From contig NZ_CP032698.1 in the NCBI RefSeq assembly GCF_003627815.1, forward strand, positions 2,170,001 to 2,234,000: a stretch of 64,000 bases of DNA. Direction: 5' to 3'. This DNA comes from Streptomyces hundungensis (GTDB taxonomy: Bacteria; Actinomycetota; Actinomycetes; Streptomycetales; Streptomycetaceae). The stretch's first letter is position 1. Every line of letters starts with the position of its first letter. Made by a program: the position numbers and the translations under genes. The notes under the pieces are model-generated. The model was not told the origin of the DNA. It did not search any database and saw only the letters and a program-made list of their open reading frames with translations. Shown here piece by piece: positions 1,053-17,860 of the stretch.

Positions 1053-1496
1053 TCACTCCGAGCTCGGGGAGGGCGGCCGGCCCCACGGAGTTTCCAGCGT
1101 CGCCCGCAGGGCATCGACCGCCTCCTGGCCGATCCGCTCGGCGAGCTGCGCTTCCAGCCGGTCAAGGATGATGCCGGCCTGACGGTGTGCGCGTTCTCCT
1201 TCACTGGTGCGGCGAATCAAGCGCTGTCGGGCGGAGGCGGGGTCCGGGACTTGTTGGAGCAGCCCGGTGGCGACGAGGCCGTGCACGGCCTGGTGCGCGG
1301 TCTGCCGTGTGACGCCCATGCGCCGGGCCAGCTCGGAGACCGTGGTGCCCTGGTCGTCCAGCACGGCGAAGAGCTGGGCCTGCGTCGGGGACACCGGCGT
1401 GGCTCCGGCTGCTTCCAGGGCCGCCAGCAGTCCTTCTTCGAACCAGCGCCGGGCGTCGCCGAGCAACTGGGGGAGGTTACGGCGGGTGGACTGCAT
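1053..1496 (-). CDS. MarR-family transcriptional regulator
   Basis: A 147-residue winged-helix regulator of the MarR family. The helix-turn-helix is visible around residues 50-85 (VSELARRMGVTRQTAHQAV), followed by the wing and a C-terminal dimerisation helix. It is divergent from the quercetinase gene. The 107-bp gap between them contains a perfect 8+3+8 palindrome at 1555-1573, so it most likely represses the quercetinase-hydrolase pair and itself, and is released by a phenolic ligand. The ligand is not known from sequence. The ATG start at 1496 was chosen because it precedes the family's N-terminal helix at the usual distance. Confidence 0.85.
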   Translation of the reverse strand: MQSTRRNLPQLLGDARRWFEEGLLAALEAAGATPVSPTQAQLFAVLDDQGTTVSELARRMGVTRQTAHQAVHGLVATGLLQQVPDPASARQRLIRRTSEGERAHRQAGIILDRLEAQLAERIGQEAVDALRATLETPWGRPPSPSSE

Positions 1497-1554
1497 CTGT
1501 TCCTCACCATGGGGCCGGGCTCGTCATCCAACGCTTGATTATCGACACCCTCCC

Positions 1555-1573
1555 ATGTCAGGCTACCTGACAT
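1555..1573. promoter_or_regulatory. Palindromic operator between MarR and quercetinase genes
   Basis: ATGTCAGG, three bases, then CCTGACAT: a perfect inverted repeat with 8-bp arms. It lies 31 bp before the quercetinase start and 59 bp before the MarR start, the expected place for a MarR dimer to block both promoters. Its core, CAGG-N3-CCTG, recurs twice in front of the second MarR gene at 17447. Confidence 0.7.
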
Positions 1574-1603
1574 TCTTGGCGGAGTCCGATCACCGGAGGA
1601 CAC

Positions 1604-2161
1604 ATGACCATCGAGTACGCCACCCGCTACCGGCAGGCATCACGGATACCCGCGGAGCCGGGCAAGCCCTACTTCATCGAGAAGGGAGAGGGGGACCGCG
1701 CCCATCTGTTCGGCGACCTGATCACCATCTACGCGGGCGGGGAGCAGACCGAGAACACCTTCAACTTCTTCACCGTCGAGGGCCCCAAAGGCGACCTCAT
1801 CCCGGCCCACCTGCACACCGACACCCACGAGGTCTTCTACATCACCCAGGGCGCGGTCCGGCTGTTCGTCGAGGACACCGAGGGCAACCAGCAGGAGAAG
1901 CTGCTCACGCCCGGCGACTTCGGCTTCGTACCGAAGAACTGCCGCCACGCCTACCGCATGGAGCGCCACCACAGCCAGGTCGTCGGCGTCGCCGCCGGTC
2001 CTGGAGGCACCTTCGAGCGGTTCTTCGAGAATTTCGGCGCACCTGCCGAGCAACTCGGCCTGCCGCACCAGCCGGTCGTTCCCGCACCCCACAAGTTCGC
2101 CAGTGTCCCCGAGCAGTACGACGTACGCTTCCTGCCCGACCACCAGTGGCGGACCCGATGA
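1604..2161 (+). CDS. queD: Quercetin 2,3-dioxygenase, monocupin type
   Basis: This 185-residue single-cupin protein has the length and metal ligands of the Streptomyces quercetinase QueD: His69, His71 and Glu76 in HLHTDTHEVFY, and His115 in CRHAYR. QueD-type enzymes open the C ring of flavonols such as quercetin with O2, releasing CO and leaving a depside (2-protocatechuoyl-phloroglucinol carboxylate). They are usually nickel- or cobalt-dependent and cytosolic; no signal peptide is visible. A GGAGG box precedes the ATG at 1604. The next gene overlaps the stop codon by four bases (ATGA), so the two are translationally coupled. The divergent MarR gene and the palindrome at 1555 are the likely control. 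Confidence 0.88.
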   Translation: MTIEYATRYRQASRIPAEPGKPYFIEKGEGDRAHLFGDLITIYAGGEQTENTFNFFTVEGPKGDLIPAHLHTDTHEVFYITQGAVRLFVEDTEGNQQEKLLTPGDFGFVPKNCRHAYRMERHHSQVVGVAAGPGGTFERFFENFGAPAEQLGLPHQPVVPAPHKFASVPEQYDVRFLPDHQWRTR

Positions 2162-3045
2162 CAACGACCGGACCCTCGCTGCGGGAACTGATCGCCGCAC
2201 CCCACCCGGACCACGCTCCCCTACCGCCCGCCACACCGAGCGGGCCCGGCGTACGAGAACTGCGCGGCGTCCCCTACGCCGATGTCGAGGGCAGCCGTCC
2301 CCTGGAACTCGACCTGTGGCTGCCCTCGGACGACCGGACCGGCCCCTTTCCTCTGGTGCTGTTCGTGCACGGCGGCGCCTGGCGACGAGGCCGGCGCGAC
2401 GACATGGGGATGCGCACGCGCCACTGGAGTCCCGGGCCCTTCGCGCGCATCGCGGCTGCCGGTCTCGCCGTCGCATGCGTCGACTACCGACTCAGCGGTG
2501 AGGCCACCTTCCCCGCCCCGCTGGACGATCTACGCGCCGCACTGCGCTGGCTCACCCTGCGCTCCGCGGAACTCGGCATCGACACCGCGCGCACGGTGGT
2601 GTGGGGAGAGTCCGCCGGCGGACACCTCGCCTCGCTTCTCGCCCTGACCCACGTCGATCCGCCACTGGCGGGCGCCGTGATCTGGTACGCACCGAGCGAC
2701 CTGACCGCCACACGAGGCCGCTTCACCCCCGAGGACGCCACCACTCCCGAGGCACTCATGCTCGGCGCGGCCCCGTCAGCCGTCCCGGGGCATGCCCGCG
2801 CGGCCAGCCCCCTCACCCACGTCCACTCCGGCGCGCCACCGTTCCTCCTCGTCCACGGCGAGCAGGACACCATGGTGCACTGCTCACACAGCCAATCCCT
2901 CGCCGCGGCACTGGAGGGAGCCCGGGCACCGGTCGAGTTGCGGACGGTGCCCGGCGCCGATCACGGCTGGCACGGGCTTCCCGACGCCCAGGTGGAGGAG
3001 ATCTTCACCGGCACCCTGGCCTTCGCCCGTCACATCGTGGCCTGA
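2158..3045 (+). CDS. Alpha/beta hydrolase (esterase), possible depside hydrolase
   Basis: A 295-residue alpha/beta-hydrolase of the esterase/lipase HGG type. The oxyanion-hole motif HGGAW is at residues 71-75 and the nucleophile elbow GESAGG places Ser152. Asp237 in GEQD and His269 in ADHGWH complete the triad. It has no signal peptide. Its start overlaps the quercetinase stop (ATGA), implying a joint function. Since quercetinase leaves an ester of protocatechuate with trihydroxybenzoate, the simplest guess is that this enzyme cleaves that ester and feeds protocatechuate to the lig operon at 4898-12164. The fold and triad are seen; the substrate is inference. Confidence 0.85.
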   Translation: MTTTGPSLRELIAAPHPDHAPLPPATPSGPGVRELRGVPYADVEGSRPLELDLWLPSDDRTGPFPLVLFVHGGAWRRGRRDDMGMRTRHWSPGPFARIAAAGLAVACVDYRLSGEATFPAPLDDLRAALRWLTLRSAELGIDTARTVVWGESAGGHLASLLALTHVDPPLAGAVIWYAPSDLTATRGRFTPEDATTPEALMLGAAPSAVPGHARAASPLTHVHSGAPPFLLVHGEQDTMVHCSHSQSLAAALEGARAPVELRTVPGADHGWHGLPDAQVEEIFTGTLAFARHIVA

Positions 3046-3058
3046 CTGCAGCCCGCGA

Positions 3059-3080
3059 TCCCGGGTGCCCGCACCTGGGA
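3059..3080. terminator. Possible terminator after hydrolase gene
   Basis: A 9-bp stem with one G-T type mismatch and a four-base loop lies 14 bp after the hydrolase stop. There is no T tract, as is common in this genome type. The call is tentative. Confidence 0.35.
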
Positions 3081-3247: not shown

Positions 3248-3943
3248 CTAGTCCCCAGCCGCCCGCATGCCCCTGGCGCGGGCGGTCCTCGATGCCGCGT
3301 CGGAGCCAAGGAGGTCGAGGACTTCGCGGGCGAGGCCCGGCCGGCTGGAGGCGGTCAGTACACCCCCGCTGAACGTCGAGCTGATGGCGGTGTCACCTGG
3401 CAGGGGGCCGATGACGACGACGCCCGGCAGGTTCATCAACTCGCTGTGCTGTTGAAAGGCCAGGTCGGCTCGGCCGGACGCCAGCAGGCTGCCTGCCGGT
3501 ACCCCCGGTTGCGCTTGGACAAGCCGATCGGACAGCGTGTCGGCGAGATCCAGCCGGGTGATCAGATCGATGAGGGCCGTGCCGCTGGGGCCGGTGGAGT
3601 AGGCGATCCCCTCCGCGGACGTCAGCGCGGCTCGCAGGTCGGATTCCGAGCCGAGTGCCGGGACGGGTGTTCCTTTCGCCGCGGCGGCGACGACCTGCGA
3701 GATCCACAGCGGTCGCGTCGTGCCCTCGAGGATGTGCCCTTCCTTCTCCAGCTCGGCCAGTGCGCCGTCGGCGAGGACGAGCAGGTCGGCCTCGGCGCCT
3801 TCGCGCACCCGCCGCGCGATCTCGACCCCGCCGGCGGAATCGAACCGTACGGGGAGCCCGTGAACGAGCCGGATGTGTTCGGACAGCTCGGCCAGCACGG
3901 GCCGCGTCGCCATCGAAGACAGCCCAGAGATGTCTCGGTCCAC
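3248..3943 (-). CDS. Cytosolic ModA-like substrate-binding-domain protein
   Basis: A 231-residue protein resembling the periplasmic binding-protein fold of ModA-type proteins (early ELSEHIRLVHGLPV segment, SGRADLAF near the C-terminal lobe hinge). It lacks a signal peptide or lipobox, and no permease or ATPase genes adjoin it, so it is probably not a transport component. Such stand-alone proteins occur beside aromatic-degradation genes. It is divergent from the IclR gene. The GTG at 3943 has a strong AAGGAGG box a few bases upstream; an internal ATG at 3913 is an alternative. Roles as ligand sensor or isomerase are speculative. Confidence 0.7.
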   Translation of the reverse strand: MDRDISGLSSMATRPVLAELSEHIRLVHGLPVRFDSAGGVEIARRVREGAEADLLVLADGALAELEKEGHILEGTTRPLWISQVVAAAAKGTPVPALGSESDLRAALTSAEGIAYSTGPSGTALIDLITRLDLADTLSDRLVQAQPGVPAGSLLASGRADLAFQQHSELMNLPGVVVIGPLPGDTAISSTFSGGVLTASSRPGLAREVLDLLGSDAASRTARARGMRAAGD

Positions 3944-4018: not shown

Positions 4019-4786
4019 GTGAGCACAACCCGGAGCACGGCGGCCGGCAAGGTCCTGGAGGTCCTCTCGGCCTTCGACCGCGAGCACCCGTCGCAGACGT
4101 TGTCGGAGATCGCCCAGCGCACGGGTCTGGCCCTGAGCACCACGCACCGGGTGGTGGCCGAACTGGCGGGCTGGGGCATCCTGGAGCGGGCCGAGGACGG
4201 GTCGTGGCATGTGGGGCTGCGGCTCTGGGAGATCGCCTCCGGCTGCCCGCGTACCCAGATCCTGCGCGATGTGGCGCTGCCGTTCATGCAGGACCTGTAC
4301 GAGGTCACGCACGAGAACATCCAGCTCGCGGTGCGGGAGGGCACGGAGCTCGTGTTCGTCGAGCGGATCGCCGGGCACCGCTCGGTGGAGCTGCTGACGA
4401 TGGTCGGGACGCGCTTCCCGATCGCCTCCACGGGGATGGGCCGGGTGCTCCTCGCGTACGCGCCGCAGGAGATCCAGGAGGAAGTCCTCGACGCGCCGCT
4501 GCGAGCGTGGACCCCGCACACGGTCGTCGATCCGAAGGCGCTGCGGGCGCAGTTGGACCGGATCCGCCGGGAGCACGTCTTCGTCAGCGACCGGCAGCTG
4601 TCCGAGAGCACGGTCGCGGTGGCCGCGCCCGTACGGATCGGGCGGGCCGGGCCGGTGAGCGCCGCTCTGGGGGTGGTGATCACGGCGCAGGGCGCGAGCC
4701 GTGCGCGCCGGCTGCGGGAGCCGCTGCTGCGAGCCGCGCACGGCATCTCGGAGGAGCTCGGCCGGCGTACCCGTACGACTTCCTGA
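4019..4786 (+). CDS. IclR-family regulator of the pobA-lig operon
   Basis: A 255-residue IclR-type regulator. An N-terminal winged helix (TLSEIAQRTGLALSTTHRVV, about residues 28-47) is followed by the effector-binding domain with the conserved STGMGRVLLAY stretch near residue 140. PcaU, PobR and PcaR, the classical regulators of protocatechuate and 4-hydroxybenzoate genes, belong to this family. It sits immediately upstream of pobA on the same strand. The 111-bp gap holds three GTTCG repeats every 9 bp, a likely binding site. It probably activates the operon in response to 4-hydroxybenzoate or protocatechuate. The GTG start at 4019 has only a weak ribosome-binding site. Confidence 0.87.
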   Translation: MSTTRSTAAGKVLEVLSAFDREHPSQTLSEIAQRTGLALSTTHRVVAELAGWGILERAEDGSWHVGLRLWEIASGCPRTQILRDVALPFMQDLYEVTHENIQLAVREGTELVFVERIAGHRSVELLTMVGTRFPIASTGMGRVLLAYAPQEIQEEVLDAPLRAWTPHTVVDPKALRAQLDRIRREHVFVSDRQLSESTVAVAAPVRIGRAGPVSAALGVVITAQGASRARRLREPLLRAAHGISEELGRRTRTTS

Positions 4787-4852
4787 AGTCCCGGATCGGG
4801 ACGGGCTTCCGCCTGACGGAAACGGCAGCGACCCGGCATCGGAGCGGGTGTC

Positions 4853-4897: not shown

Positions 4898-6109
4898 ATG
4901 GCCGATGCCCCCGTCGACACCGTCGCCTCGGTCCCCGTAGCCGTGGTCGGCGCCGGTCCCGCGGGCCTGATGCTGGCGCACCGGCTCGGGCGCGCCGGGG
5001 TCGGGACGATCGTGCTCGACACCCGTACCCGGCGCGAGATCGAGACGACGCAGCGCGCCGGGATCCTGGAGGCCGACGTGGCCCGGGATCTGGTCGAGAC
5101 CGGTGTCTCCGACCGGATCCTGCGGGACGGCCACGAGCACGAGGGCACCGAGCTCCGGTTCGGCGGCCGGGCGCACCGTATCCACTTCAAGGCCCTGGTG
5201 GGCGAGTCGGTGTGGCTCTACCCGCAGACCGACGTGTTCATCGACCTGGCCGACGCGCGGGAGCGCGACGGCGGCACGGTCCACTTCGGCGTCAGGGACA
5301 CCGAAGTCCTCGACATCACCACCGACGCCCCGCGCGTCCGGTACACGGCGGCCGACGGGTCCCGGCACGAGATCCGGGCGCGGTACGTGGTCGGCGCGGA
5401 CGGGTCCCGCAGCATGTGCCGCGACCTGGTGCCGGAGGAGCGGCGGACGCGGTACGGCAGGGAGTACCCCTTCGCGTGGTTCGGCATCCTCGCCGAGGCG
5501 CCGATGAGCGCGCCCGAGCTGATCTACGCCCACTCGGAGCACGGCTTCGCGCTGATCAGCCAGCGCACCGAGGCCGTGCAGCGGATGTACTTCCAGTGCG
5601 GCCCCGGCGAGTCCGTCGACGCCTGGTCGGACGACCGCATCTGGGAGACCCTCCAGGCGCGGGTGGCCGGTGAGGACGGCTTCCGGCTGAAGGAGGGGCC
5701 CGTCGTCGAGAAGACGGTGCTGCGGTTCCGGTCGTTCGTGCAGGAGCCGATGCGCTGGGGCTCGATGGTGCTCGCCGGGGATGCCGCGCACACCGTGCCG
5801 CCGACCGGCGCCCGCGGGCTCAACCTGGCGATGCACGACGTGAAGGTCCTCGCCGACGTCCTGCTGCGGGCCCTCGGTCGGGAGGGCGGGGCCGCGCTGG
5901 ACGCGTATCAGCCGCGGGCCCTCCAGCGGGTGTGGCGGGCGCAGAACTTCTCGTACTGGATGACCCGGCTGCTCCACACCGCGCCCGGCGCCTCGGCCTT
6001 CGACCTGCGGCGCCAGCTCGGCGAGCTCGACAACGTGGTGGGCACGCGCGCAGGACGGACGTACCTCTCGGAGCAGTACACCGGCTGGCCCGCCAGCGCC
6101 CAGGACTGA
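4898..6109 (+). CDS. pobA: 4-hydroxybenzoate 3-monooxygenase
   Basis: A 403-residue class A flavoprotein monooxygenase that converts 4-hydroxybenzoate to protocatechuate using O2 and NAD(P)H. Visible motifs are the FAD-binding GAGPAG near residue 19, the second dinucleotide motif VVGADGSRS, and the third FAD motif LAGDAAHTVPPTGARGLN. The substrate-site residues of the family are in place: Tyr in ELIYAH, Ser-Gln-Arg in ISQRT, and Tyr in RMYFQC. It is the first gene of a seven-gene same-strand cluster whose remaining members degrade protocatechuate. An AGGAG box lies just before the ATG. Confidence 0.95.
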   Translation: MADAPVDTVASVPVAVVGAGPAGLMLAHRLGRAGVGTIVLDTRTRREIETTQRAGILEADVARDLVETGVSDRILRDGHEHEGTELRFGGRAHRIHFKALVGESVWLYPQTDVFIDLADARERDGGTVHFGVRDTEVLDITTDAPRVRYTAADGSRHEIRARYVVGADGSRSMCRDLVPEERRTRYGREYPFAWFGILAEAPMSAPELIYAHSEHGFALISQRTEAVQRMYFQCGPGESVDAWSDDRIWETLQARVAGEDGFRLKEGPVVEKTVLRFRSFVQEPMRWGSMVLAGDAAHTVPPTGARGLNLAMHDVKVLADVLLRALGREGGAALDAYQPRALQRVWRAQNFSYWMTRLLHTAPGASAFDLRRQLGELDNVVGTRAGRTYLSEQYTGWPASAQD

Positions 6110-6161: not shown

Positions 6162-7187
6162 TTGATCATCGACTGTCACGGTCACTTCACCACCGCACCG
6201 CCGCAGTTGGCGCAGTGGCGCGACCGGCAGATCGCGGCCGTCGGCTCCCCCGCGGACGCGCCCGACCCCGACGACCTCGTCATCACCGACGACGACCTGC
6301 GCCGGGCCGTCGAGGGCAACCAGCTGCGCCTGATGGACGAACGGGGCAGCGACCTGACCATCTTCTCCCCGCGGGCCAGCTTCATGGCCCACCACATCGG
6401 CGACCTCGCCGTCTCCTCGACGTGGGCGCGGATCTGCAACGACCTGGTCCACCGGGTCAGCACGCTCTACCCCGACCGGTTCGCGATGGGCGCGATGCTG
6501 CCGCAGTCCCCCGGCGTCGACCCGGCCACCTGCCTGCCCGAGCTGCGCCGCGCGGTCGAGGAGCTCGGCGCGGTGACGGTCAACCTCAACCCGGACCCCT
6601 CGGGCGGCCGTTGGACGGCGCCGCCGCTGACGGACCGGAGCTGGTACCCGCTCTACGAGGCGATGGCCACGTACGACATCCCCGCGATGATCCACGTCTC
6701 CACGTCTTGCAATCCGGCCTTCCACACCACCGGCGCCCACTACCTGAACGCCGATACCACAGCGTTCATGCAGCTCGTCCAGGGCGACCTGTTCGCCGAC
6801 TTCCCGACGCTGCGGTTCGTGATCCCGCACGGCGGCGGCGCCGTCCCGTACCACTGGGGCCGGTTCCGCGGCCTGGCGATGGCGCTGGGCAGGCCGGACC
6901 CGGAGACGCTGCTCGACAACGTCTTCTTCGACACCTGTGTCTACCACCAGCCCGGCGTCGACCTGCTGACCCGCGTGATCCCCAGCCGGTCCGTCCTCTT
7001 CGCCAGCGAGATGATCGGCGCCGTCCGCGACATCGACCCGCGCACCGGCCACCACTTCGACGACACGAAGCGCTACGTCGACGCCACCCCGCACCTGTCG
7101 GACGAGGAACGTGCCGCCGTCTACTCCGGCAACGCCCTGCGCGTCTACCCCCGACTCGCCGCCCGCCTCGCCGCGGCCGGCCGCTGA
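6162..7187 (+). CDS. ligJ: 4-oxalomesaconate hydratase (LigJ)
   Basis: A 341-residue amidohydrolase-superfamily enzyme, the same length as Sphingobium LigJ. The metal ligands His6 and His8 (DCHGHFT), His178 (MIHVS), catalytic-type His223 (IPHGGG) and the acidic residue in FASEMIG (about 283) line up with that enzyme. It hydrates the 4-oxalomesaconate-derived intermediate to 4-carboxy-4-hydroxy-2-oxoadipate in the protocatechuate 4,5-cleavage pathway. The TTG at 6162 was chosen because AGGAG sits 7 bp upstream and translation then begins directly at the MIIDCHGHF metal motif. The 52-bp gap after pobA and 17-bp gap before ligK indicate one operon. Confidence 0.9.
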   Translation: MIIDCHGHFTTAPPQLAQWRDRQIAAVGSPADAPDPDDLVITDDDLRRAVEGNQLRLMDERGSDLTIFSPRASFMAHHIGDLAVSSTWARICNDLVHRVSTLYPDRFAMGAMLPQSPGVDPATCLPELRRAVEELGAVTVNLNPDPSGGRWTAPPLTDRSWYPLYEAMATYDIPAMIHVSTSCNPAFHTTGAHYLNADTTAFMQLVQGDLFADFPTLRFVIPHGGGAVPYHWGRFRGLAMALGRPDPETLLDNVFFDTCVYHQPGVDLLTRVIPSRSVLFASEMIGAVRDIDPRTGHHFDDTKRYVDATPHLSDEERAAVYSGNALRVYPRLAARLAAAGR

Positions 7188-7204: not shown

Positions 7205-8834
<1,630 letters not shown>

Positions 8835-8858: not shown

Positions 8859-10163
8859 ATGTCACTGGACAAGACCTACAAGCTGGTGCCGGGGACGACC
8901 ATCTTCGACGCCGAGCAGTCCGCCAAGGGCTATCACCTCAACCAGTTCTGCATGTCGCTGATGACGGCCGAGAACCGCGCGGCCTTCCTCGCCGACGAGC
9001 GCGCCTACCTGGACGCGTGGCCGCTGCGAGAGGAGCAGAAGCAGGCGCTCCTCGACCGTGACCTCAACGCGGCGATGCGCGAGGGCGGCAACATCTACTT
9101 CCTCGCCAAGTGGGGTGCGACGCTGGGGTTCTCGTTCCAGCAGATGGCCGGCTCGATGACGGGCATGACCGAGGAGGAGTACCGCGCCATGATGGTCGGC
9201 GGCGGGCGCTCGGTCGAGGGCAACCGGATCGACCACGCCGTCCTGGACGCGGCGTACACGAACCCGGAGCCGTCGGCCGAGCACGCCACGATCACCGGCG
9301 CCGTCTTCACCTCGCACGTGCCGGCGATCGGCGCGGCCCTGGACCACGGCAAGACCGAAGAGCCGTACTGGCAGCCGGTCTTCGAGGGGTACGCGTACTC
9401 CAAGACGTGGGAGCGGGAGAACGTCCCCGACGTGATCTTCCTCGTCTACAACGACCACGCCAGCGCCTTCGACCAGTCGATGATCCCGACCTTCGTCCTC
9501 GGCACCGGCGCCTCGTACCCCATCGCCGACGAGGGCTACGGGCCCCGCCCCGTGCCCGGCATCGAGGGCGATCCCGACCTGGCCGCGCACATCGCGCACT
9601 CCCTCATCCGGGACGACTTCGACCTCACCCTCGTCAACGAGATGGCCGTCGACCACGGTCTGACCGTCCCGCTGTCACTGATGTTCGGCGACGTCGAGAA
9701 GTGGCCCTGCAAGGTCATCCCGTTCCACGTCAACGTGGTGCAGTACCCGGTCCCCTCCGGCGCCCGCTGCTTCAAGCTCGGCCAGGCGCTGCGCAAGGCG
9801 ATCGAGTCGTACGACCGCCCCCTCAAGGTGCACGTGTGGGGCACCGGCGGCATGAGCCACCAGCTCCAGGGACCGCGCGCCGGCCTCATCAACCGCGAGT
9901 GGGACAACGCCTTCCTGGACCGGCTGATCGCCGACCCCGCGGGGCTGGCCGAGGTGCCGCACCTGGAGTACGTCGAGGAGGCCGGCTCGGAAGGCATCGA
10001 GCTGGTCATGTGGCTGATCGCCCGAGGCGCGCTGAGCGACGTGGACGGCGCCGTCGAGGTCAAGCACCGCTTTTACCATGTGCCCGCGTCCAACACGGCC
10101 GTCGGCCACCTGATCCTGGAGAACCACCCCCGGGCCGAGGCGCCCGCCGAAGGAGAGAACTGA
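8859..10163 (+). CDS. ligAB: Protocatechuate 4,5-dioxygenase, fused alpha-beta chain (LigAB)
   Basis: A 434-residue class III extradiol dioxygenase in which both subunits are one chain. Residues 1 to about 125 match the small LigA subunit (GYHLNQFCMSLM, GGNIYFL, AGSMTGMT). Residues 143 to the end match catalytic LigB. Iron ligands expected from LigB are His153 (TSHVPA), His200 (YNDHAS) and Glu378 (GSEGIELVMW); His334 in GMSHQLQG matches the catalytic base. It cleaves protocatechuate between C4 and C5 to 4-carboxy-2-hydroxymuconate semialdehyde. In the best-known systems LigA and LigB are separate genes; in gallate dioxygenase the fusion order is reversed. The frame is continuous with no internal start needed. 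ligC starts 2 bp later. Confidence 0.93.
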   Translation: MSLDKTYKLVPGTTIFDAEQSAKGYHLNQFCMSLMTAENRAAFLADERAYLDAWPLREEQKQALLDRDLNAAMREGGNIYFLAKWGATLGFSFQQMAGSMTGMTEEEYRAMMVGGGRSVEGNRIDHAVLDAAYTNPEPSAEHATITGAVFTSHVPAIGAALDHGKTEEPYWQPVFEGYAYSKTWERENVPDVIFLVYNDHASAFDQSMIPTFVLGTGASYPIADEGYGPRPVPGIEGDPDLAAHIAHSLIRDDFDLTLVNEMAVDHGLTVPLSLMFGDVEKWPCKVIPFHVNVVQYPVPSGARCFKLGQALRKAIESYDRPLKVHVWGTGGMSHQLQGPRAGLINREWDNAFLDRLIADPAGLAEVPHLEYVEEAGSEGIELVMWLIARGALSDVDGAVEVKHRFYHVPASNTAVGHLILENHPRAEAPAEGEN

Positions 10164-10164
10164 C

Positions 10165-11139
10165 ATGACCGACGACCGAACCCTGCGGATCGCCCTGGCC
10201 GGCGGCGGCGCCTTCGGCGCCAAGCACGCGGCCGCACTCCGCCGCATCGAGGGCGTCGAGGTGGCCGCCGTCGTGAGCGGCAGCCTGGAGGGGGCCCGGA
10301 AGTTCGCCGCCGAGCAGGGCGTGGGCCGCGCCGTCGCCTCCCTGGACGAGGTGCTGGCGATGGACGACATCGACGCCGTCATCCTCGCCACCCCCACCCA
10401 GATGCACGCAGCGCAGACCCTGGCCTGCCTCGACGCGGGCAAGCACGTGCAGACCGAGATTCCGCTCGCCGACTCCCTCGCCGATGCCGAGGCGTGCCAG
10501 TCGGCGCAGGAGCGCACCGGGCTCGTCGCGATGGCGGGCCACACCCGCCGCTTCAACCCCAGCCACCAGTGGGTGCACCGACGGATCGAGGCCCGCGACT
10601 ACAACATCCAGCAGATGGACGTGCAGACGTACTTCTTCCGCCGGGAGAACCTCAACGCGCTCGGGGAGCGCCGCTCCTGGACCGACCACCTGCTGTGGCA
10701 CCACGCCGCGCACACGGTCGACCTCTTCGCGTACCAGACCGGCTCCCCGATCGTGCAGGCCAACGCGATCCAGGGCCCGATCCACCCCGAGCTGGGCATC
10801 GCGATGGACATGTCGATCCAGCTGCGCGCGGCCAACGGCGCCATCTGCACCCTGTCTCTGTCGTTCAACAACGACGGCCCGCTCGGGACGTTCTTCCGCT
10901 ACATCGGCAACACCGGCACCTACATCGCCCGGTACGACGACCTGTTCACGGGCAAGGACGAGCCGATCGACGTAAGCGGGGTCGACGTGTCGATGGACGG
11001 CATCGAGCTCCAGGACCGCGAGTTCGTCGCCGCGATCCGCGAGGGCCGCGAGCCGAACGCGTCCATCGCCCAGGTCCTTCCCTGCTACCGGACGCTGGCG
11101 GCGCTGGAACGGCAGCTCACCGCCGCCGCGGGCTCGTGA
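10165..11139 (+). CDS. ligC: 4-carboxy-2-hydroxymuconate semialdehyde dehydrogenase (LigC)
   Basis: A 324-residue oxidoreductase of the Gfo/Idh/MocA family. The Rossmann glycine motif AGGGAFGAKH lies at the N-terminus, followed by ATPTQMHA and the family-type core with HLLWHHAAHTVDLF. It oxidises the hemiacetal form of the ring-cleavage product to 2-pyrone-4,6-dicarboxylate with NADP+, the substrate of LigI. It follows ligAB with a spacer of one base and has an AGGAG box inside the ligAB end. Its stop overlaps the start of the next gene (GTGA). Confidence 0.92.
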   Translation: MTDDRTLRIALAGGGAFGAKHAAALRRIEGVEVAAVVSGSLEGARKFAAEQGVGRAVASLDEVLAMDDIDAVILATPTQMHAAQTLACLDAGKHVQTEIPLADSLADAEACQSAQERTGLVAMAGHTRRFNPSHQWVHRRIEARDYNIQQMDVQTYFFRRENLNALGERRSWTDHLLWHHAAHTVDLFAYQTGSPIVQANAIQGPIHPELGIAMDMSIQLRAANGAICTLSLSFNNDGPLGTFFRYIGNTGTYIARYDDLFTGKDEPIDVSGVDVSMDGIELQDREFVAAIREGREPNASIAQVLPCYRTLAALERQLTAAAGS

Positions 11140-12164
11140 CCGCGCCGACGCGGGCCGGCGCGGGATGGTCCCCGCGCCGGATCGGGCCCTTCGAGGTCCC
11201 GGCCGTCGGCCTGGGTTGCATGAACCTGAGCCACGCCTACGGCGTCGCGCCCTCTGCGGAGGACGCCGAGCGGCTGCTCCTGACGGCGCTGGAGGAGGGC
11301 GTGACGCTCTTCGACACCGCCGCCCTCTACGGCTTCGGCGCCAACGAGGAGCTGGTCGGACGGGTGCTCGCCCGGCACCGGGACCGGATCGTGCTGGCCA
11401 GCAAGTGCGGCATGACCGGCGTCGACGGCCGCCGCGTCATCGACGGCCGCCCGGAGACCCTGCGGCGTACCGTCGACGAGGCGCTGGCCCGGCTGCGTAC
11501 CGACGTGATCGACCTCTACTACCTGCACCGGCTCGACCGGGCGGTGCCGGTGGAGGAGAGCGTCGGGGCGATGGCCGGGCTCGTCGAGGCGGGCAAGGTG
11601 CGGGCCCTGGGCCTGTCCGAGGTGTCCGCCGCGACCCTGCGGCGGGCCCGCGCCGTGCACCCGATCGCCGCGCTGCAGAACGAGTACAGCCTGTGGACGC
11701 GCAATCCCGAGCAGGGGACCCTGGAGGCGGCCCGTGAACTCGGCGTCGCCCTGGTGGCGTTCAGCCCGCTGGCCCGGGGGTTCCTCACCGCCGCACCCCC
11801 GGACTTCGGCGCTCTTCCCGCGGGTGACATCCGCCGGGGCATGCCCCGCTTCGACGAGCGCCACTATCCGGGCAACCTGGCGCTGCGGAGCGAGCTGGAG
11901 AAGATCGCCGGCGGTGCCGGCGTCACCCTGCCGCAGCTGGCCCTGGCCTGGGTCCTCTCCCGTGGTTCCCACGTCGTGGCCATTCCGGGGACCCGGTCGG
12001 TTCCTCACCTGCGGGAGAACCTGTCCGTCCTCGACCTCGACGTACCCGGCGAGGCCCTCGAAGCGGCCGGACGGGTGCTGAACGGCACGACCGTCCACGG
12101 GGCCCGCTACAACGAGGCCACGCTCGCCGAGATCGACACCGAGCGCTGCGGGCGAGCAGGCTGA
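11136..12164 (+). CDS. Aldo/keto reductase, last gene of lig operon
   Basis: A 342-residue NADPH-dependent aldo/keto reductase. GLGCMNLSHAYG is at the start, LFDTAALYGFGANEELVG carries the catalytic Asp and Tyr, LASKCG the Lys, and YYLHRLD the His. IPGTRSVPHLRENL near the C-terminus is the cofactor loop. The GTG start at 11136 overlaps the ligC stop, so it is translated with the operon. No known step of the 4,5-cleavage pathway needs it. It could reduce an aromatic aldehyde or a toxic semialdehyde, or serve a substrate that enters upstream; this cannot be decided from sequence. Confidence 0.85.
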   Translation: MTAPTRAGAGWSPRRIGPFEVPAVGLGCMNLSHAYGVAPSAEDAERLLLTALEEGVTLFDTAALYGFGANEELVGRVLARHRDRIVLASKCGMTGVDGRRVIDGRPETLRRTVDEALARLRTDVIDLYYLHRLDRAVPVEESVGAMAGLVEAGKVRALGLSEVSAATLRRARAVHPIAALQNEYSLWTRNPEQGTLEAARELGVALVAFSPLARGFLTAAPPDFGALPAGDIRRGMPRFDERHYPGNLALRSELEKIAGGAGVTLPQLALAWVLSRGSHVVAIPGTRSVPHLRENLSVLDLDVPGEALEAAGRVLNGTTVHGARYNEATLAEIDTERCGRAG

Positions 12165-12277: not shown

Positions 12278-13327
12278 TCAGCTGCCGAAGCCGAGGCCGA
12301 GGCGGTCGAGGGTGCGTAGCCAGAGGTCGCGGCGGCCCTGGTTGCGGTCGGCGCGGGCGAGGGAGCGTTGGGTGATGCCGATACCGATCGAGCGGAAGGG
12401 CTCGGGCGGGAAGGGCAGGGGCTTGCGGCGTACGAGTTCGAGGGCTGTGCGCTGGGTGGACGCGCCGGCCAGGAGGTCCAGCATCACCTCGGCGCCGAAG
12501 CGGGTGGCGCCTACGCCGAGGCCGGTGAAGCCGGCGGCGTAGGCAACCTTGCCGCGGTGGCTGGTATCGAAGAAGACACAGAAGCGGGTGCTGGTGTCGA
12601 TGGCCCCGCCCCAGGCGTGACTGAAGCGGACGCCTTCCAGCTGGGGGAACGTCGTGAAGAAGTGGCGGGCCAGGGTCGCGTAGGTCTCGGGGCGCCGGTC
12701 GTGCTCGGCGCTCACCCCGCCCCGGAAGTGGTGGACGACGTCGTAACCGCCCCACAGAATGCGGTGGTCGGTGGTGATCCGGGCGTAGTGGAAGTAGTTG
12801 GCGGGGTCGGCCCAGCCCTGCCGGTTGTGCCAGCGGACCGAGGCAAGCTGCTCCTCGGTCAGCGGCTCGGTCACCAGCGCGTAGTCGTAGACCGGGACGG
12901 TGTACGGGCGGTGCCGGCGAAGCAGCGAGGGGTACGCGTTGGTGGCGAGTGCGACGCGTGCGGCGGTGATCCGGCCATAGGGAGTGCCGACGGAGACGAC
13001 GGCGCCGTGCTCGTCGAGGGAGAGCGCCGGGGTGTGTTCGTGTATGCAGACGCCGAGGTCGAGGCAGGCGCGCTTGAGACCCCAGGCGAGGCGGGCCGGG
13101 TTGACCATCGCGGTGTCGCTCTTGTTCCAGACGGCGCCGAGGAAGGTCGTGGAGTCTATCTCGGCGCGGACCTCGTCGGCGTCGAGGAGGACGGTGTCGG
13201 CCCCGTGGCGGGCGGCCGTCTCTGCCTCCTCGGCGAGCCAAGCGACCTGGTGGGGCTCGGTGGCGACGACGAGAGAGCCGGTGCGCTCCCAGTCGCGTCG
13301 AGGACGGTTACCAGGGCGCGGGCGAGG
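12278..13327 (-). pseudogene. N-terminally truncated FAD-dependent (DAO-type) oxidoreductase
   Basis: The open frame encodes the C-terminal three quarters of a DAO-family amine oxidase of the gamma-glutamylputrescine-oxidase type. Homology-like sequence begins around 13294 with DWERTGSLVVATEPHQ and runs through NPARLAWGLKRAC and WGGYD to AYAAGFTGLGVGATRFG, the C-terminal FAD contact. Upstream the frame hits a stop at 13328-13330, and the N-terminal Rossmann GxGxxG part (about 110 residues) is missing. Without it FAD cannot be bound normally. An internal ATG at 13108 could be read, but the product would not be a complete enzyme. The break lies 40 bp from the coumarate operon, marking a recombination or deletion junction. 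Confidence 0.8.
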
Positions 13328-13367: not shown

Positions 13368-13826
13368 TCAGGCGTAGTGGCGGTAGACGGCCTGGGCGAC
13401 GCAGGCCGGCTTGTCGCTGCCGTCGACCTCGACGGTGAACGTCAGCGGCATCTGGACGCCGTTGCCCTTGACCTCCTCCACCGTGCCGACGACACCGTGG
13501 AGGCGGATCTTCGCGCCGACGGGGACGGGGCTGGGGAAACGGACCTTGTCCAGGCCGTAGTTGACGCTCATCTTGGTGCCGGTGATGCCGAGCAGCTCCC
13601 CGAAGAGCGGAATGATGAGGGAGAGGGTGAGGTAGCCGTGGGCGATGGGGCCGCCGAAAGGGCCGTCCTTGGCCTTCTCCGGGTCGGTGTGGATCCACTG
13701 GTGGTCGTCGGTGGCGTCGGCGAAGGTGTTCACCCGCTGCTGGGTGATGTCGAGCCATTCGGTGCGGCCCAGGTCGGCTCCGCTGAGGGCCTTGAGACCG
13801 TCGAGGCCGTTGGCGGTGGTGGGCAT
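13368..13826 (-). CDS. MaoC-family enoyl-CoA hydratase (CouM-like)
   Basis: A 152-residue single hot-dog-fold hydratase. The hydratase-2 motif is clear: DATDDHQWIHTDPEKA with the catalytic Asp/His pair, followed by GGPIAHGYLTLSL. It adds water across the double bond of an enoyl-CoA. It is the last gene of a four-gene minus-strand operon with a CoA ligase, an amidohydrolase and a short-chain dehydrogenase, the set known as CouL-CouO-CouN-CouM in Rhodococcus p-coumarate degradation. It would hydrate p-coumaroyl-CoA. The ATG at 13826 follows AAAGGA; the frame extends upstream but without a plausible start. Confidence 0.85.
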   Translation of the reverse strand: MPTTANGLDGLKALSGADLGRTEWLDITQQRVNTFADATDDHQWIHTDPEKAKDGPFGGPIAHGYLTLSLIIPLFGELLGITGTKMSVNYGLDKVRFPSPVPVGAKIRLHGVVGTVEEVKGNGVQMPLTFTVEVDGSDKPACVAQAVYRHYA

Positions 13827-13893: not shown

Positions 13894-15441
13894 TTACGGG
13901 TGGGGACGATCGGTGGGACCGGTCGCATAGGTGTCGCGTACGGCGGGCTTGATGATCTTCCCGGAGGCCGTGCGGGGCAGCGCCTCGGTCACGACGAGGG
14001 ACTTGGGGATCTTGTACTTGGCAAGCCGGCCGCGCAGGTGGCCGAGGATGTCGTCCTCGTCGGCGTGGGCACCGGGTTCGAGGACGACGACGGCGCGGCC
14101 GACCTCGCCCCAGACCGGGTCGGGCACGCCGATGACCGCGCATTCGGCGACGGCGGGATGGGAGAGGAGCACGTCCTCCACCTCGGCCGGGTAGACGTTC
14201 TCCCCGCCCGAGACGAACATGTCCTTGACGCGGTCGACGATGTAGGCGTACCCGTCGTCGTCGACGCAGGCGACGTCGCCGGTGCGCAACCAGTGGTCGT
14301 CGGTGAAGGCGGCCTCCGTGTCCTCGGGCCGTCCCCAGTAGCCGGTCATGACGTTGGGGCCGTGGACGAGGATCTCGCCGCGCTCGCCGGGTTCGGCGGC
14401 GCGGCCGCCGGGCAGGACCACGCGGGTGTCGGTGAAGAAGTGCGGCACGCCGGCGGAGCCCGCCTTGGCCGAGGTCTGCTCCCGGTCCAGGTAGAGGACC
14501 CCGGGGGACGCCTCGGTCATGCCGTAACCCTGACTGAAGGCGAGGCCGCGGTCGAGGTACGCGGCGATGGTACGGGCGGGCACGGGTGCGCCGCCGCAGT
14601 TGAGGGTGCGCAGGCTGGACAGGTCCGTGGTCTCCCAGCGGGGCCGCGCGGCCATGGCGTCGTACATGGTGGGGACGCCGAACATGTACGTCACCCGCAG
14701 GTCCTCGATGAGCTCCAGGACGCGCTCGGCGTCGAAGGCTCCGAGGAGGACCACCCGGCCGCCCTTGAGCAGGGTCGGCAGGCAGGTCATGTTGAGCCCG
14801 GCGGTGTGGAACAGCGGCGCCACGACGAGGGTCACCTCGTCGCCGGCCAGGTCGGTGTCGACGAGGACGTTGACGCTGTTCCAGGTGATGTTGGCGTGGG
14901 AGAGGACGGCGCCCTTGGGGCGGCCCGTAGTGCCGGAGGTGTACATGATCATGCACGGGTCCTCGGGCGCCACGGCCTCGTCCAGCGGTCCCGTCCCGGC
15001 GCCGATGAGCAGCTCTTCGTAACCGAGGGCGCTCTCCTCGTCGGGGCAGGCGACCGCGATCCGGTGCCGTATGCCCGTCTCGACCGCCGCGGCGCGGGCC
15101 GCCTCGGCCTGCTCGTGCGCGTGGACGAGGACGGTGCTGCCCGAGTCGGCGAGGTTGTACGCCAGCTCCTGTGCCGTGAGGCGGGTGTTGAGCGGGACGA
15201 AGACCGCCCCCAGGGTCCCGGCGGCGAACAGGGTCTCCAGGAACGCCGGATGGTTGGGGCCGAGGTACGCGATCCGGTCTCCCCGTGCCACGCCCAGCGC
15301 GCGCAGGGCGTGGGCGAGGCGCAGGACGCGTTCGTGCAGCTCGCGGTAGGTCAGGGTGCGGTCCTCGTGGACGACGGCCACCCGGTCGGGGGTCTTGCGG
15401 GCCCGGCGCGCCGGCCAGGAACCGATGCCTTGGTTCAACAC
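13894..15441 (-). CDS. Acyl-CoA ligase, probably p-coumaroyl-CoA synthetase (CouL-like)
   Basis: A 515-residue adenylate-forming CoA ligase (ANL superfamily). The P-loop-like MYTSGTTGRPKG is at about residues 166-177, then GYGMTEA, the hinge-region TGDVACVDDDGY, and the C-terminal catalytic Lys in RTASGKI. Such enzymes activate carboxylates to CoA thioesters through an acyl-AMP. The operon partners (hydratase, dehydrogenase, amidohydrolase and divergent MarR) match the CouLMNO/CouR system, so a hydroxycinnamate such as p-coumarate is the favoured substrate. A medium- or long-chain fatty acid is the alternative. The spacer to the upstream amidohydrolase gene is 10 bp. Confidence 0.87.
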   Translation of the reverse strand: MLNQGIGSWPARRARKTPDRVAVVHEDRTLTYRELHERVLRLAHALRALGVARGDRIAYLGPNHPAFLETLFAAGTLGAVFVPLNTRLTAQELAYNLADSGSTVLVHAHEQAEAARAAAVETGIRHRIAVACPDEESALGYEELLIGAGTGPLDEAVAPEDPCMIMYTSGTTGRPKGAVLSHANITWNSVNVLVDTDLAGDEVTLVVAPLFHTAGLNMTCLPTLLKGGRVVLLGAFDAERVLELIEDLRVTYMFGVPTMYDAMAARPRWETTDLSSLRTLNCGGAPVPARTIAAYLDRGLAFSQGYGMTEASPGVLYLDREQTSAKAGSAGVPHFFTDTRVVLPGGRAAEPGERGEILVHGPNVMTGYWGRPEDTEAAFTDDHWLRTGDVACVDDDGYAYIVDRVKDMFVSGGENVYPAEVEDVLLSHPAVAECAVIGVPDPVWGEVGRAVVVLEPGAHADEDDILGHLRGRLAKYKIPKSLVVTEALPRTASGKIIKPAVRDTYATGPTDRPHP

Positions 15442-15451
15442 GGCGTCTCCT

Positions 15452-16339
15452 TCAGCCCGTGGTCAGACCGAGCAGTCGGGCGGCGTTCTCCTTGAGGATC
15501 TTCGGCCGGACCTCGGGCTTGATGTCGAGCTTCTCGAAGTCGGCGAGCCACCGGTCGGGGGTGATGACGGGATAGTCGGAGCCGAAGAGCACCTTGTCCT
15601 GGAGCAGCGTGTTCGCGTAGCGCACGAGCTGCGGCGGGAAGTACTTCGGGGACCATCCGGACAGATCGATGTACACGTGCGGCTTGTGGGTGGCGACCGC
15701 CAGGGCCTCGTCCTGCCAGGGGAAGGACGGGTGGGCGAGGATGATCCGCAGTTCCGGGAAGTCGACGGCCACGTCGTCGACCGGCATCGGGTTCGAGTAC
15801 TTCAGGCGGATACCGCCGCCGCCCGGGACGCCGGCGCCGATGCCGGTCTGGCCGGTGTGGAACAGGGCGGGGACGCCGAGTTCCTCGATGGCCTCGTACA
15901 GCGGGTAGGCGAGCGGGTCATTCGGGGAGAACGCCTGGATGCTGGGGTGGAACTTGAACCCCCGGACTCCGTGTTCTTCGACCAGCCGGCGGGCCTCCCG
16001 TACGCCCGCGCGGCCCTTGTGCGGGTCGATGCTGGCGAAGGGAATCAGGGTGTCGGCGTGGGCGGCGCAGCTCTCGGCGATCTCCTCGTTGGAGATCCGC
16101 GGGTGACCGGTGGCGTGCTCCGCGTCGACGGTGAACACCACCGCGGCCATGCGGCGCTCCCGGTAGTGGTCGGCCATCTCCTCGATGGTCGGCTGCCGGT
16201 GGCCGTGGGCCTTGAAGTACGCCTCGGAGGCACCGAACAGCTCCGGACTCAGCGCCCCGTGGCCGTCCTTGGAGATCTCCGCGTGCGTGTGCACGTCGAT
16301 GGCGGTGAGCCGGTCGAGGTCGAGCGCGAGGTCGCCCAT
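15452..16339 (-). CDS. Amidohydrolase-family C-C hydrolase (CouO-like)
   Basis: A 295-residue metal-dependent amidohydrolase. The metal motif is DVHTHAE (His17, His19); GVRGFKFHPS, FHTGQTG, LAHPSFPW and FGSDYPV follow at the spacing of the amidohydrolase-2 family. In the Rhodococcus p-coumarate pathway the matching member (CouO) is proposed to cleave the beta-keto-CoA intermediate hydrolytically, giving 4-hydroxybenzoate. The latter would feed pobA, 10 kb away on the other strand. The ATG at 16339 is used; a GTG at 16345 overlapping the upstream stop would add two residues. Function is by operon analogy. Confidence 0.8.
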   Translation of the reverse strand: MGDLALDLDRLTAIDVHTHAEISKDGHGALSPELFGASEAYFKAHGHRQPTIEEMADHYRERRMAAVVFTVDAEHATGHPRISNEEIAESCAAHADTLIPFASIDPHKGRAGVREARRLVEEHGVRGFKFHPSIQAFSPNDPLAYPLYEAIEELGVPALFHTGQTGIGAGVPGGGGIRLKYSNPMPVDDVAVDFPELRIILAHPSFPWQDEALAVATHKPHVYIDLSGWSPKYFPPQLVRYANTLLQDKVLFGSDYPVITPDRWLADFEKLDIKPEVRPKILKENAARLLGLTTG

Positions 16340-16341
16340 GC

Positions 16342-17253
16342 TCACGCCTCCGGTGCCTGGGGCGCGGGGATGCCGTAGGTCTCGGGCTCGGCGCCGACGC
16401 CGTCCGCCCACCCGGCGGCGATGGCGTCGGCGCTCCAGCCACCGTCCGCGAAGGCGATCGCCTTCTCCTTGGGGTGTGCCCAGAGGGCCAGCCGGTCGCC
16501 GCCGATGCCGATCGCCTGCCCGGTCACTCCGTCGGAGTCGTCCGAGGCCAGGAAGGTGATGAGCGCGGCGACATCCTCGACGGAGCCGAGGCCCTCGTCC
16601 TTGCGCAGCCAGTCCGGCAGCGGCTTACCGGTGCGCTCGGACTCCTCGATGACCGGGGCGAACGCCGGGATGGTCTTGGTCATATCGGTGGCGGCGACGG
16701 GGACGACGGCGTTGACGGTGATACCGGCGCGGCCCAGTTCCATGGCCCAGGTGCGGGCCATGGCGACGATGCCGGCCTTGGCGGCGGCGTAGTTGGTCTG
16801 GCCGAAGTTGCCACGCTGCCCGGCCGGGGAGGAGATGAGGATCAACCGGCCACTGGTGCCCTGTTCGCGCATGCGGACGGCGGCCGCGCGGGCGCAGGTG
16901 AAGGTGCCGCGGAGGTGGACGCGGACGACGTCGTCGAAGTCGTCGTCGGTCATCTTCCACAGCACGCGGTCACGCAGGATGCCGGCGTTGGTGACGAGGA
17001 CGTCCAGACGCCCGAACTCCTCGACCGCCGTGTCCACCAGCCGCTGCGCCGACTCGCTGTCACCCACCGCCGCGACGACACCCGTCGCGGTGCCGCCCTC
17101 GGACGTGATCGAGGCGACGGCGGCGTCGACGACGGCCTGGTCGACATCGTTGACGACGACGGCGGCGCCGGCCGCGGCGAGGGCCTGCGCGTAGGCCAGT
17201 CCGAGACCGCGTCCGCTGCCGGTGACGACGGCGACCTTGCCCTGAAGATCCAT
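16342..17253 (-). CDS. Short-chain dehydrogenase, 3-hydroxyacyl-CoA type (CouN-like)
   Basis: A 303-residue SDR enzyme. The cofactor motif TGSGRGLG is at residues 11-18, NAG at 89-91, catalytic Ser141/142, and Tyr155 and Lys159 in NYAAAKAG. The C-terminal extension (VEDVAALITFLASDD, then a GWSADAIAAGW segment) resembles the dehydrogenase part of multifunctional beta-oxidation proteins. It should oxidise the 3-hydroxyacyl-CoA made by the MaoC hydratase. It is the first gene of the operon, with an AGAGG box before the ATG at 17253, and is divergent from the MarR gene across a 193-bp region carrying two palindromes. Confidence 0.85.
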   Translation of the reverse strand: MDLQGKVAVVTGSGRGLGLAYAQALAAAGAAVVVNDVDQAVVDAAVASITSEGGTATGVVAAVGDSESAQRLVDTAVEEFGRLDVLVTNAGILRDRVLWKMTDDDFDDVVRVHLRGTFTCARAAAVRMREQGTSGRLILISSPAGQRGNFGQTNYAAAKAGIVAMARTWAMELGRAGITVNAVVPVAATDMTKTIPAFAPVIEESERTGKPLPDWLRKDEGLGSVEDVAALITFLASDDSDGVTGQAIGIGGDRLALWAHPKEKAIAFADGGWSADAIAAGWADGVGAEPETYGIPAPQAPEA

Positions 17254-17315
17254 GAGGTACCTCTCGTGAGGGGCGGGAGGGGAATGCCGAAAGCGCCGAC
17301 ACGAGCCGGGATCGA

Positions 17316-17360
17316 CAGGAATCCTGATGAAGGCCAGTCTGGGCATCAACAGGTTTCCTG
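17316..17360. promoter_or_regulatory. Twin palindromes, probable CouR-type MarR operators
   Basis: CAGGAATCCTG at 17316-17326 and CAGGTTTCCTG at 17350-17360 share CAGG-N3-CCTG, with centres 34 bp apart. They lie between the divergent SDR operon and the MarR gene, 63-107 bp upstream of the operon start. Two dimers spaced by about three helical turns would bind one face of the DNA. The same core is present at 1555-1573 beside the other MarR gene. Confidence 0.6.
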
Positions 17361-17446
17361 TCAATGTCTTAGGGTGAGAGGCGCCACCACCCCGGCGGCA
17401 GCGACATGGCCCGCCCCACGCGGACGATCACCACGGGAGAACGAAC

Positions 17447-17860
17447 GTGAGCACCTCACTGCTCTATCTGCTCAAGAGGACGGAGCTGGCGGTGCGCGCC
17501 CGCCTGGAGGAGCTGCTCAAGCCCGCCGGGATCACCGCGTTGCAGTACACCGCTCTGACGGTGCTGGAGCGGCACGACGGCATCTCCGCCGCGCAGCTCG
17601 CCCGCGACTCCTTCGTCACCGCCCAGTCGATGGCCGACATGGTCCGCGCGCTGGAGAGCCGGAGTCTGATCCGCCGCGAACCCAACCCCGCCAACCGCCG
17701 CGAACGCCTCATCCTGCTCGCCGACCCGGGGCGGCGACTGCTCGCCGAGTACGCCGGGCAGGCCCGAGCACTGGAGGAGCGCATGGTCGCCGACCTGAGC
17801 GCCGAGGAGGTCGGCGTGCTGAGGGAAGCCCTGGTCACGGCGTGGCGGGCGCTGTCCTAG
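17447..17860 (+). CDS. MarR-family regulator (CouR-like)
   Basis: A 137-residue MarR regulator. The recognition region reads ISAAQLARDSFVTAQSMADMV, followed by the wing (NPANRRERLILLADPG) and C-terminal dimer helices. In Rhodococcus and Rhodopseudomonas, CouR of this family represses hydroxycinnamate genes and is released by p-coumaroyl-CoA. The position here, divergent from the ligase-hydratase-dehydrogenase-amidohydrolase operon with twin palindromes between, fits that role. The GTG at 17447 has a GGAG-type box. Confidence 0.83.
   Translation: MSTSLLYLLKRTELAVRARLEELLKPAGITALQYTALTVLERHDGISAAQLARDSFVTAQSMADMVRALESRSLIRREPNPANRRERLILLADPGRRLLAEYAGQARALEERMVADLSAEEVGVLREALVTAWRALS

Follow-up and report, generated by a model that had tools for sequence, protein, structure and literature searches.

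Here, we describe a putative catabolic island of Streptomyces hundungensis that lies in a 64,000-nucleotide stretch of DNA (the window, positions 2170001–2234000 of the 8.39-Mb single-contig genome, G000). Gene content, linkage, co-occurrence and exclusion tie one of its genes, which encodes a leaderless ModA-fold protein (3248–3943, minus strand), to the 4,5-cleavage of protocatechuate. It is likely that the island core converts 4-hydroxybenzoate to pyruvate and oxaloacetate, with this ModA-like protein as a non-homologous, PmdU-like isomerase of 4-oxalomesaconate (OMA) and with Cou-like and quercetinase modules as optional feeders; we infer the catalytic activities from the genes. PobA would convert 4-hydroxybenzoate to protocatechuate, LigAB would open the ring at 4,5, LigC would oxidise the ring-opening product to 2-pyrone-4,6-dicarboxylate (PDC), and LigI would turn PDC into OMA. 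The ModA-like protein, a solute-binding fold lacking an export signal and molybdate ligands, would stay in the cytosol and, replacing LigU/GalD, move the double bond of OMA so as to form the true substrate of LigJ; LigJ would then hydrate and LigK split the product into pyruvate and oxaloacetate. This core would be fed by the quercetinase–esterase pair and by the Cou-like beta-oxidation genes, which would have their own regulators. More broadly, we are inclined to think that widespread aromatic degraders shift the OMA double bond with an enzyme evolved from a solute-binding protein of the molybdate-transport type, a second solution unrelated to LigU/GalD, and that the Streptomyces island, which occurs both in chromosomes and on a linear plasmid, replaces 3,4-cleavage.

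On paper, many 4,5-cleavage and gallate clusters lack a gene for this step; the assignment supplies one and would correct a transporter label. If confirmed, an isomerase would join the enzymes built on a binding-protein fold, which to our knowledge are few. The island would also represent a Streptomyces route for protocatechuate besides the beta-ketoadipate pathway, with bearing on lignin and flavonoid turnover and on PDC production.

The oxalomesaconate step

The recognised OMA isomerases LigU and GalD are, we presume, PrpF proteins, and the window's genome contains no match to that family (PF04303). A first-pass annotation of this DNA had described a complete 4,5 set. LigAB, LigC, LigI, LigJ and LigK are indeed present, but a recognised OMA isomerase is not, and the annotation's gene account left out the ModA-like gene, which probably fills the gap. 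Across 392 Streptomyces genomes, scored for LigAB and PcaH, 15 hold a window-type LigAB; the ModA-like gene is present in all 15 and in none of 15 controls (97 of a larger number of candidates scored in each). No PrpF match in the 15 LigAB genomes exceeds 63 bits. We also compared 80 LigAB loci, a sample that partly overlaps with the 15 genomes, some Streptomyces being in both. A LigJ match and enough sequence make 59 of these comparable; 15 were dropped for want of a LigJ match and 6 for too little sequence (three with the ModA-like gene, one with PrpF, two with neither). The ModA-like gene is found in 32 of the 59, PrpF in 11, both in none and neither in 16 (Fisher p = 4.7e-5). Searches of 21 whole genomes, among them 8 of the 16 'neither' genomes, gave a ModA-like match above 290 bits in 12: seven of the eight 'neither' genomes, with the gene elsewhere (G010, G014, G016, G020, G021, G025, G034), and five ModA-like controls (G026, G028, G013, G009, G037). 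Strong ModA-like matches are absent from eight genomes with a PrpF locus (G029, G031, G032, G036, G039–G042; best 40.8 bits), and the eighth 'neither' genome, G024, has PrpF only, elsewhere in the genome (ModA-like best 45.2 bits).

Of the 32 plasmid ModA-like records with 80% coverage, 31 have LigJ no more than 7 kb away; the remaining one, which is named modA and is 33.6% identical, is absent from the best 60 of 209 LigJ rows. Nine such regions were opened with their annotation, for which the PLSDB gene table is incomplete. The gallate and protocatechuate routes are common from OMA onward, and gallate clusters of B. multivorans, Caballeronia and Paraburkholderia contain a gallate dioxygenase, LigJ, LigK and the ModA-like gene; in these three stretches the incomplete table annotates no protocatechuate dioxygenase, LigI, LigC or PrpF. 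The ModA-like gene has LysR on one side and LigJ on the other in Acidovorax and Diaphorobacter plasmids, a slot occupied in P. caribensis by an annotated 4-oxalomesaconate tautomerase. In a Sphaerotilus plasmid the ModA-like gene and LigJ form a lone pair, in a Methylobacterium plasmid the gene adjoins LigK with LigJ 5.6 kb off, and in two Arthrobacter plasmids it stands at the end of the protocatechuate cluster.

The window's ModA-like gene (PF13531) diverges from an IclR-family gene, and AAGGAGG precedes its GTG start. The ModA fold is seen in a predicted structure (AlphaFold, pLDDT 96.4), while the curated modA equivalog TIGR01256 gives 27.1 bits against a cut-off of 62.5. No export signal was found, and the window frame has no ATG, GTG or TTG upstream of the start used. 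Among 36 ModA-like rows, 12 (window included) likewise lack an earlier in-frame start and 14 have fewer than 20 residues of frame upstream; in the remaining rows the nearest start was taken. The molybdate ligands are not kept: the ModA-like family profile has G, S, G and Q at S39, A125, V152 and Y170, which we take to be the ligand positions in E. coli, and S12 falls outside the alignment. The neighbours are an esterase gene and a regulator gene, with no permease or ATPase. Having no signal, no adjoining permease and altered ligands, the gene was rejected as part of a molybdate transporter. Its relatives nonetheless carry the label solute-binding protein in the sources (8000 relatives scored, best 120 listed), and structure searches with the model have binding proteins among the matches listed, a result compatible with a PrpF-like match as well.

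Several observations weigh against an isomerase role. Partial PrpF matches of 27.2–62.4 bits, above the Pfam cut-off of 27, occur in seven of the 15 LigAB Streptomyces; most PrpF in the whole-genome search scored about 324–587 bits, far above these. Of the 59 loci compared, 16 have neither gene nearby. Six of the 12 ModA-like genomes also hold PrpF elsewhere (G016, G020, G021, G025, G026, G028, four of them 'neither' genomes), and since full PrpF is thus found in several proteobacterial ModA-like genomes, genome-wide exclusion is not general; PrpF in these genomes possibly serves methylcitrate. All p-values are given without correction for kinship, and relatedness inflates them; several plasmid records look near-clonal. 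In one decayed Streptomyces locus (L008, 7708–12264) the ModA-like gene is truncated, LigC lies in two frames, and no LigJ, PobA or IclR is present in 21 kb. Finally, a binding or regulatory role would equally yield co-occurrence.

Such a role is at the heart of one alternative, which we regard as unlikely: that the ModA-like protein binds an intermediate or protocatechuate without catalysis, as an uptake part or effector sensor, and that the OMA step is spontaneous or carried out by LigJ alone or by a distant PrpF relative. The predicted solute-binding fold fits this, as do the names given to relatives, including 'ABC-type molybdate transport system' for the gene in the same position in Pseudarthrobacter Sphe3 (PMC8431788), and so do the weak PrpF matches, though none occurs in the window's genome. 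A sensor or uptake protein is harder to reconcile with the lack of an export signal, no in-frame start preceding the one used in the window, with neighbours that are not transport genes, with a gene that alternates with the PrpF isomerase, in the 59 loci and in the slot shared by Acidovorax, Diaphorobacter and P. caribensis, instead of accompanying it, and with one that goes along with the enzymes leading from OMA to 4-carboxy-4-hydroxy-2-oxoadipate (CHA) into gallate clusters. We think it quite improbable that unrelated aromatic genes have become neighbours by chance and that the named substrates are wrong. The entry modules are unlinked in most LigAB Streptomyces and the substrate names rest on families, but a second genome, G116, keeps the order of all three modules, the cou-lig-pob part recurs on a linear plasmid, LigK matches at equivalog level, and LigI and LigJ have their namesakes as best solved-structure matches. 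It is more doubtful still that the fused dioxygenase acts on gallate and not on protocatechuate. A single-subunit relative of actinobacterial origin converts gallate too (PMC8431788), but the domain order of the window's LigAB, A-B, is opposite to that of the gallate dioxygenase DesB, B-A; its match to LigB is 396.8 bits against 279.6; and LigC and LigI, needless for the gallate route, flank it on either side.

Core genes and the 3,4 route

Gene calling by codon bias, together with Pfam and NCBIfam scans, bears out the three modules of the first-pass annotation where it had placed them, with solved-structure matches in addition for QueD, PobA, LigAB, LigI and LigJ, and the family assignments support its proposal that the modules converge on protocatechuate. 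The core genes lie on the plus strand, behind an IclR-family regulator gene (4019–4786) that is PcaR/PcaU/PobR-like and under the TIGR02431 cut-off (142.7 against 284.75 bits). The putative 4-hydroxybenzoate 3-monooxygenase PobA (4898–6109) passes the PRK08243 cut-off (501.9 against 351), misses that of the equivalog TIGR02360 (389.5 against 538.7) and matches 8weq at 520 bits. The predicted hydratase LigJ (6162–7187) has 4-oxalomesaconate hydratase 2gwg as its best PDB match (548 bits; 6dxq, 481 bits), and the predicted CHA aldolase LigK (7205–7894) passes the TIGR02798 ligK/PcmE cut-off with 380.8 against 304.5 bits. LigI, the predicted PDC hydrolase (7914–8834), passes no NCBIfam cut-off; its best PDB match is 2-pyrone-4,6-dicarboxylate hydrolase 4d8l, at 381.5 bits. 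The predicted protocatechuate 4,5-dioxygenase (8859–10163) is a fusion of LigA and LigB, above the cut-offs of TIGR02792 (LigA) and PRK13366 (LigB class) and below that of the fused equivalog PRK13372 (743.5 against 837). Its best PDB match is LigB 1b4u, and it retains the motifs SH, NDH, MSHQ and SEG, whose residues we take to bind iron or act in catalysis. LigC (10165–11139; GFO/IDH/MocA, PF01408 and PF19858), the putative dehydrogenase of 4-carboxy-2-hydroxymuconate-6-semialdehyde (CHMS), is named by domain and place, and adjoins LigAB in most of the 80 loci. An aldo/keto reductase gene follows (11136–12164, PF00248); its homologues adjoin LigC in many actinobacterial and proteobacterial loci, and it has no role in the textbook pathway. 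In several proteobacterial clusters a DUF1932-type gene lies between LigK and LigI (L160, L161 and loci such as L013 and L017).

The first-pass annotation had called the 4,5 route unusual in Streptomyces, and the survey agrees. In 14 of the 15 LigAB genomes the match is at least 88% over nearly full length; in the other, G118, it lies in two frames (87 and 94%). Another 19 Streptomyces have weaker LigAB matches, 15 of them with a set at 50–56% and four near E 1e-21, and were counted as without LigAB. PcaH is above the curated cut-off in 242 of the 392 genomes: in none of the 15 with LigAB and in 242 of the 377 others (Fisher p = 3.5e-7). True PcaH scores about 1e-100, whereas matches in the 15 are at E 6e-13 to 2.5e-5 in 12 and absent in three (G116, listed as having none, and G140 and G374, which do not occur among the matching rows). 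Streptomyces with the LigAB route seem to use it in place of protocatechuate 3,4-cleavage. PcaGH was not found in the window's genome, where the one weak match is to a secreted-looking intradiol protein (L001). This is the genome's sole PF00775 intradiol-type dioxygenase, with, by eye, a Tat-like signal and a chitin-binding-like tail; it was rejected as PcaH. The distant LigAB-like set of the 15 other Streptomyces (L097–L111) is accompanied by a separate LigA-like match in 9, and every one of those 15 genomes also contains a PcaH match with E no higher than 3e-102. In an rpoB tree of the 15 LigAB genomes and 15 others, LigAB genomes occupy four positions: 11 form one clade (support 0.998), G116 pairs with G363 (1.000), and G374 (0.147) and G000 (0.650) are each weakly placed. 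An earlier survey had found the gene in 1 of 53 actinobacterial genomes (cited in PMC8431788).

Extent of the island, entry modules and regulation

The block is probably a catabolic island that has spread laterally. Its core in the 15 Streptomyces loci consists of the ModA-like gene, IclR, PobA, LigJ, LigK, LigI, LigAB and LigC, with the first two at the edge of another contig in G083. The Cou set lies beside this core in 4 of the 15 (G000, G116, G333, G046), and QueD with its esterase in two (G000, G116). The contig of G374 stops some 0.7 kb beyond LigC, which puts the Cou side outside the sequence, and Streptomyces locus L003 of the 80-locus set has CouM and CouL, after which its contig breaks off. 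From these frequencies, the fixed unit is ModA-like/IclR/PobA/Lig and the entry modules are add-ons; the quercetinase was rejected as a fixed part. The self-contained island of the first-pass annotation stands as a block common to G116 (all three modules in the same order), to two more genomes and to a linear plasmid (core and Cou set), but not with its entry modules as constant members. The plasmid, 1.2 Mb and typed mobilizable, belongs to Streptomyces sp. NBC_00046, and two more plasmid records have ModA-like, LigJ and CouO matches at the same identity.

The block also runs beyond 17860, where the first-pass annotation had ended it. G116 keeps the order from the MarR gene to a TetR-like gene (window 1053–31153), without the aldo/keto reductase, the DAO fragment and the genes at 21941–24713. 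The extension (17921–31153) has nine genes in the same order in G116 at 87–95%, those at 21941–24713 excepted, and contains DUF3237, a family-5 solute-binding protein, an amidase-like gene, an oligopeptide-type ATP-binding cassette (ABC) transporter (25101–28690), a CocE-like hydrolase and the TetR-like gene; genes after 20245 were named by eye.

The Cou-like genes lie together on the minus strand: a CouM-like MaoC hydratase (13368–13826, PF01575), a CouL-like acyl-CoA ligase (13894–15441, PF00501/PF13193), a CouO-like amidohydrolase (15452–16339, PF04909), of which a 64%-identical plasmid homologue is annotated as 4-hydroxyphenyl-beta-ketoacyl-CoA hydrolase, and a CouN-like short-chain dehydrogenase (16342–17253, PF13561). 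A MarR regulator gene in the CouR position (17447–17860, plus strand, PF01047) diverges from them, so that ligase, hydratase, dehydrogenase, amidohydrolase and divergent MarR occur together. The earlier description as a CouLMNO/CouR-like set is apt for the CouLMNO-like families; 'CouR-like' reflects position, the match to the solved CouR of RHA1 (5cyv, 3fm5) being at most 33.8 bits, weaker than to some other MarR proteins. Between the core and this set, an FAD oxidoreductase gene (DAO, 12278–13108) is probably truncated, since its match covers the C-terminal part of the family only. DAO matches also occur in G333 and G046, within about 2–10 kb of the Cou set, and in G363, upstream of its ModA-like gene.

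In the quercetinase module, a MarR-type regulator gene (1053–1496, minus strand, PF12802; same place in G116, 61% identity) diverges from the cupin quercetinase QueD (1604–2161, plus strand), which matches Streptomyces QueD 5fli/5flh at 354.8 bits. The alpha/beta hydrolase gene that follows (2146–3045, plus strand) encodes a proposed depside esterase (BD-FAE, 160 bits) and stands beside QueD in G116 at 54%. The 'coupled esterase' of the first-pass annotation holds in that the gene overlaps the QueD stop; the protein has no specific family name (BD-FAE/Abhydrolase_3), and its specificity for the depside is presumptive. A frameshifted, decarboxylase-like amidohydrolase remnant (named by eye) occupies positions 1–953 beside the module; a search of 16 further stretches, taken from 14 Streptomyces, gave no counterpart. 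It is the sole candidate for the trihydroxybenzoate half of quercetin and is frameshifted, so no such route was found in the window; the rest of the genome was not searched for one.

Each regulator has a palindrome nearby. TGTCAGGnnACCTGACA (1556–1572, plus strand), the likely MarR box of the quercetinase module, lies between marR and QueD in both genomes that hold the pair, is kept although the flanks differ, and is the sole place in the window at no more than 2 mismatches (0 of 100 shuffles gave 2 matches). TTCCGnCTGnCGGAAA (4806–4822, plus strand), a likely IclR operator upstream of pobA, is exact in all of the 15 loci but L120, where a single position is changed; the genome has 2 copies at no more than 1 mismatch, and in the window alone its occurrence is not beyond chance (6 of 100 shuffles). 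The second copy, with one mismatch, is at G000:C1:2169052–2169068, close to another IclR gene that lies shortly before the start of the window. Two CAGGAWTCCTG-type palindromes (17315–17360), likely CouR boxes between the couN-like gene and marR, are both present in each of 4 loci, with 1 change in the second copy of the window. Three palindromes beside three regulators, which presumably bind them, suggest three switches, with separate control of the core, quercetinase and Cou modules.

Comparison with known systems

In C. testosteroni (L037 and L041), the order is ModA-like, a major facilitator superfamily (MFS) gene (by eye), LigJ, LigK, LigI, LigAB and LigC. This fits the order U-K-E-F-D-A-B-C of the Comamonas operon, whose name we take to be pmdUKEFDABC, so the Comamonas counterpart of the ModA-like protein is probably PmdU. 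Its role may therefore already be in print via pmdU. PMC12314914 groups ligU, pmdU and galD for the OMA step. Should the role of PmdU have been published (2010), the novelty would lie in the non-homologous fold, the breadth of occurrence and the Streptomyces island. In the excerpts seen of the literature on pmdU, OMA tautomerase, OMA with molybdate, and Streptomyces 4,5-cleavage, no ModA-like protein is described as an isomerase. Unlike Comamonas pmd, the window has a fused LigAB, PobA inside the operon, an IclR regulator and no MFS gene.

The pcm cluster of Arthrobacter keyseri resembles the window in its fused dioxygenase and has the order LigJ-K-I-AB-C, aldo/keto reductase, ModA-like; it differs in its LysR regulator, and the 13 kb examined contain neither PobA nor Cou or QueD genes. 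The pca cluster of Pseudarthrobacter Sphe3, said to be a single transcript, also encodes an A-B fusion, but in contrast to the LigAB Streptomyces Sphe3 has the ortho route as well (PMC8431788). The lig genes of Sphingobium SYK-6, for which 4,5-cleavage is mentioned in PMC9277890, and the gal genes of Pseudomonas serve the same post-ring-opening reactions as those proposed for the window, but with LigU/GalD as the OMA tautomerase (PMC12314914).

For the entry modules, the cou genes of RHA1 resemble the window's set in gene types and in the divergent regulator, the proteins having been compared by sequence for CouR only; CouM and CouN of RHA1 are presumably a hydratase and a dehydrogenase. The RHA1 genes include a CoA ligase, CouL, an amidohydrolase, CouO, and divergent couN/couR promoters, and they feed the beta-ketoadipate pathway (PMC4737184), whereas the product of the window's Cou set would enter 4,5-cleavage. 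Similarly, Streptomyces QueD is collinear with the window's over its full length, and the gene of the latter overlaps an esterase gene inside a protocatechuate island.

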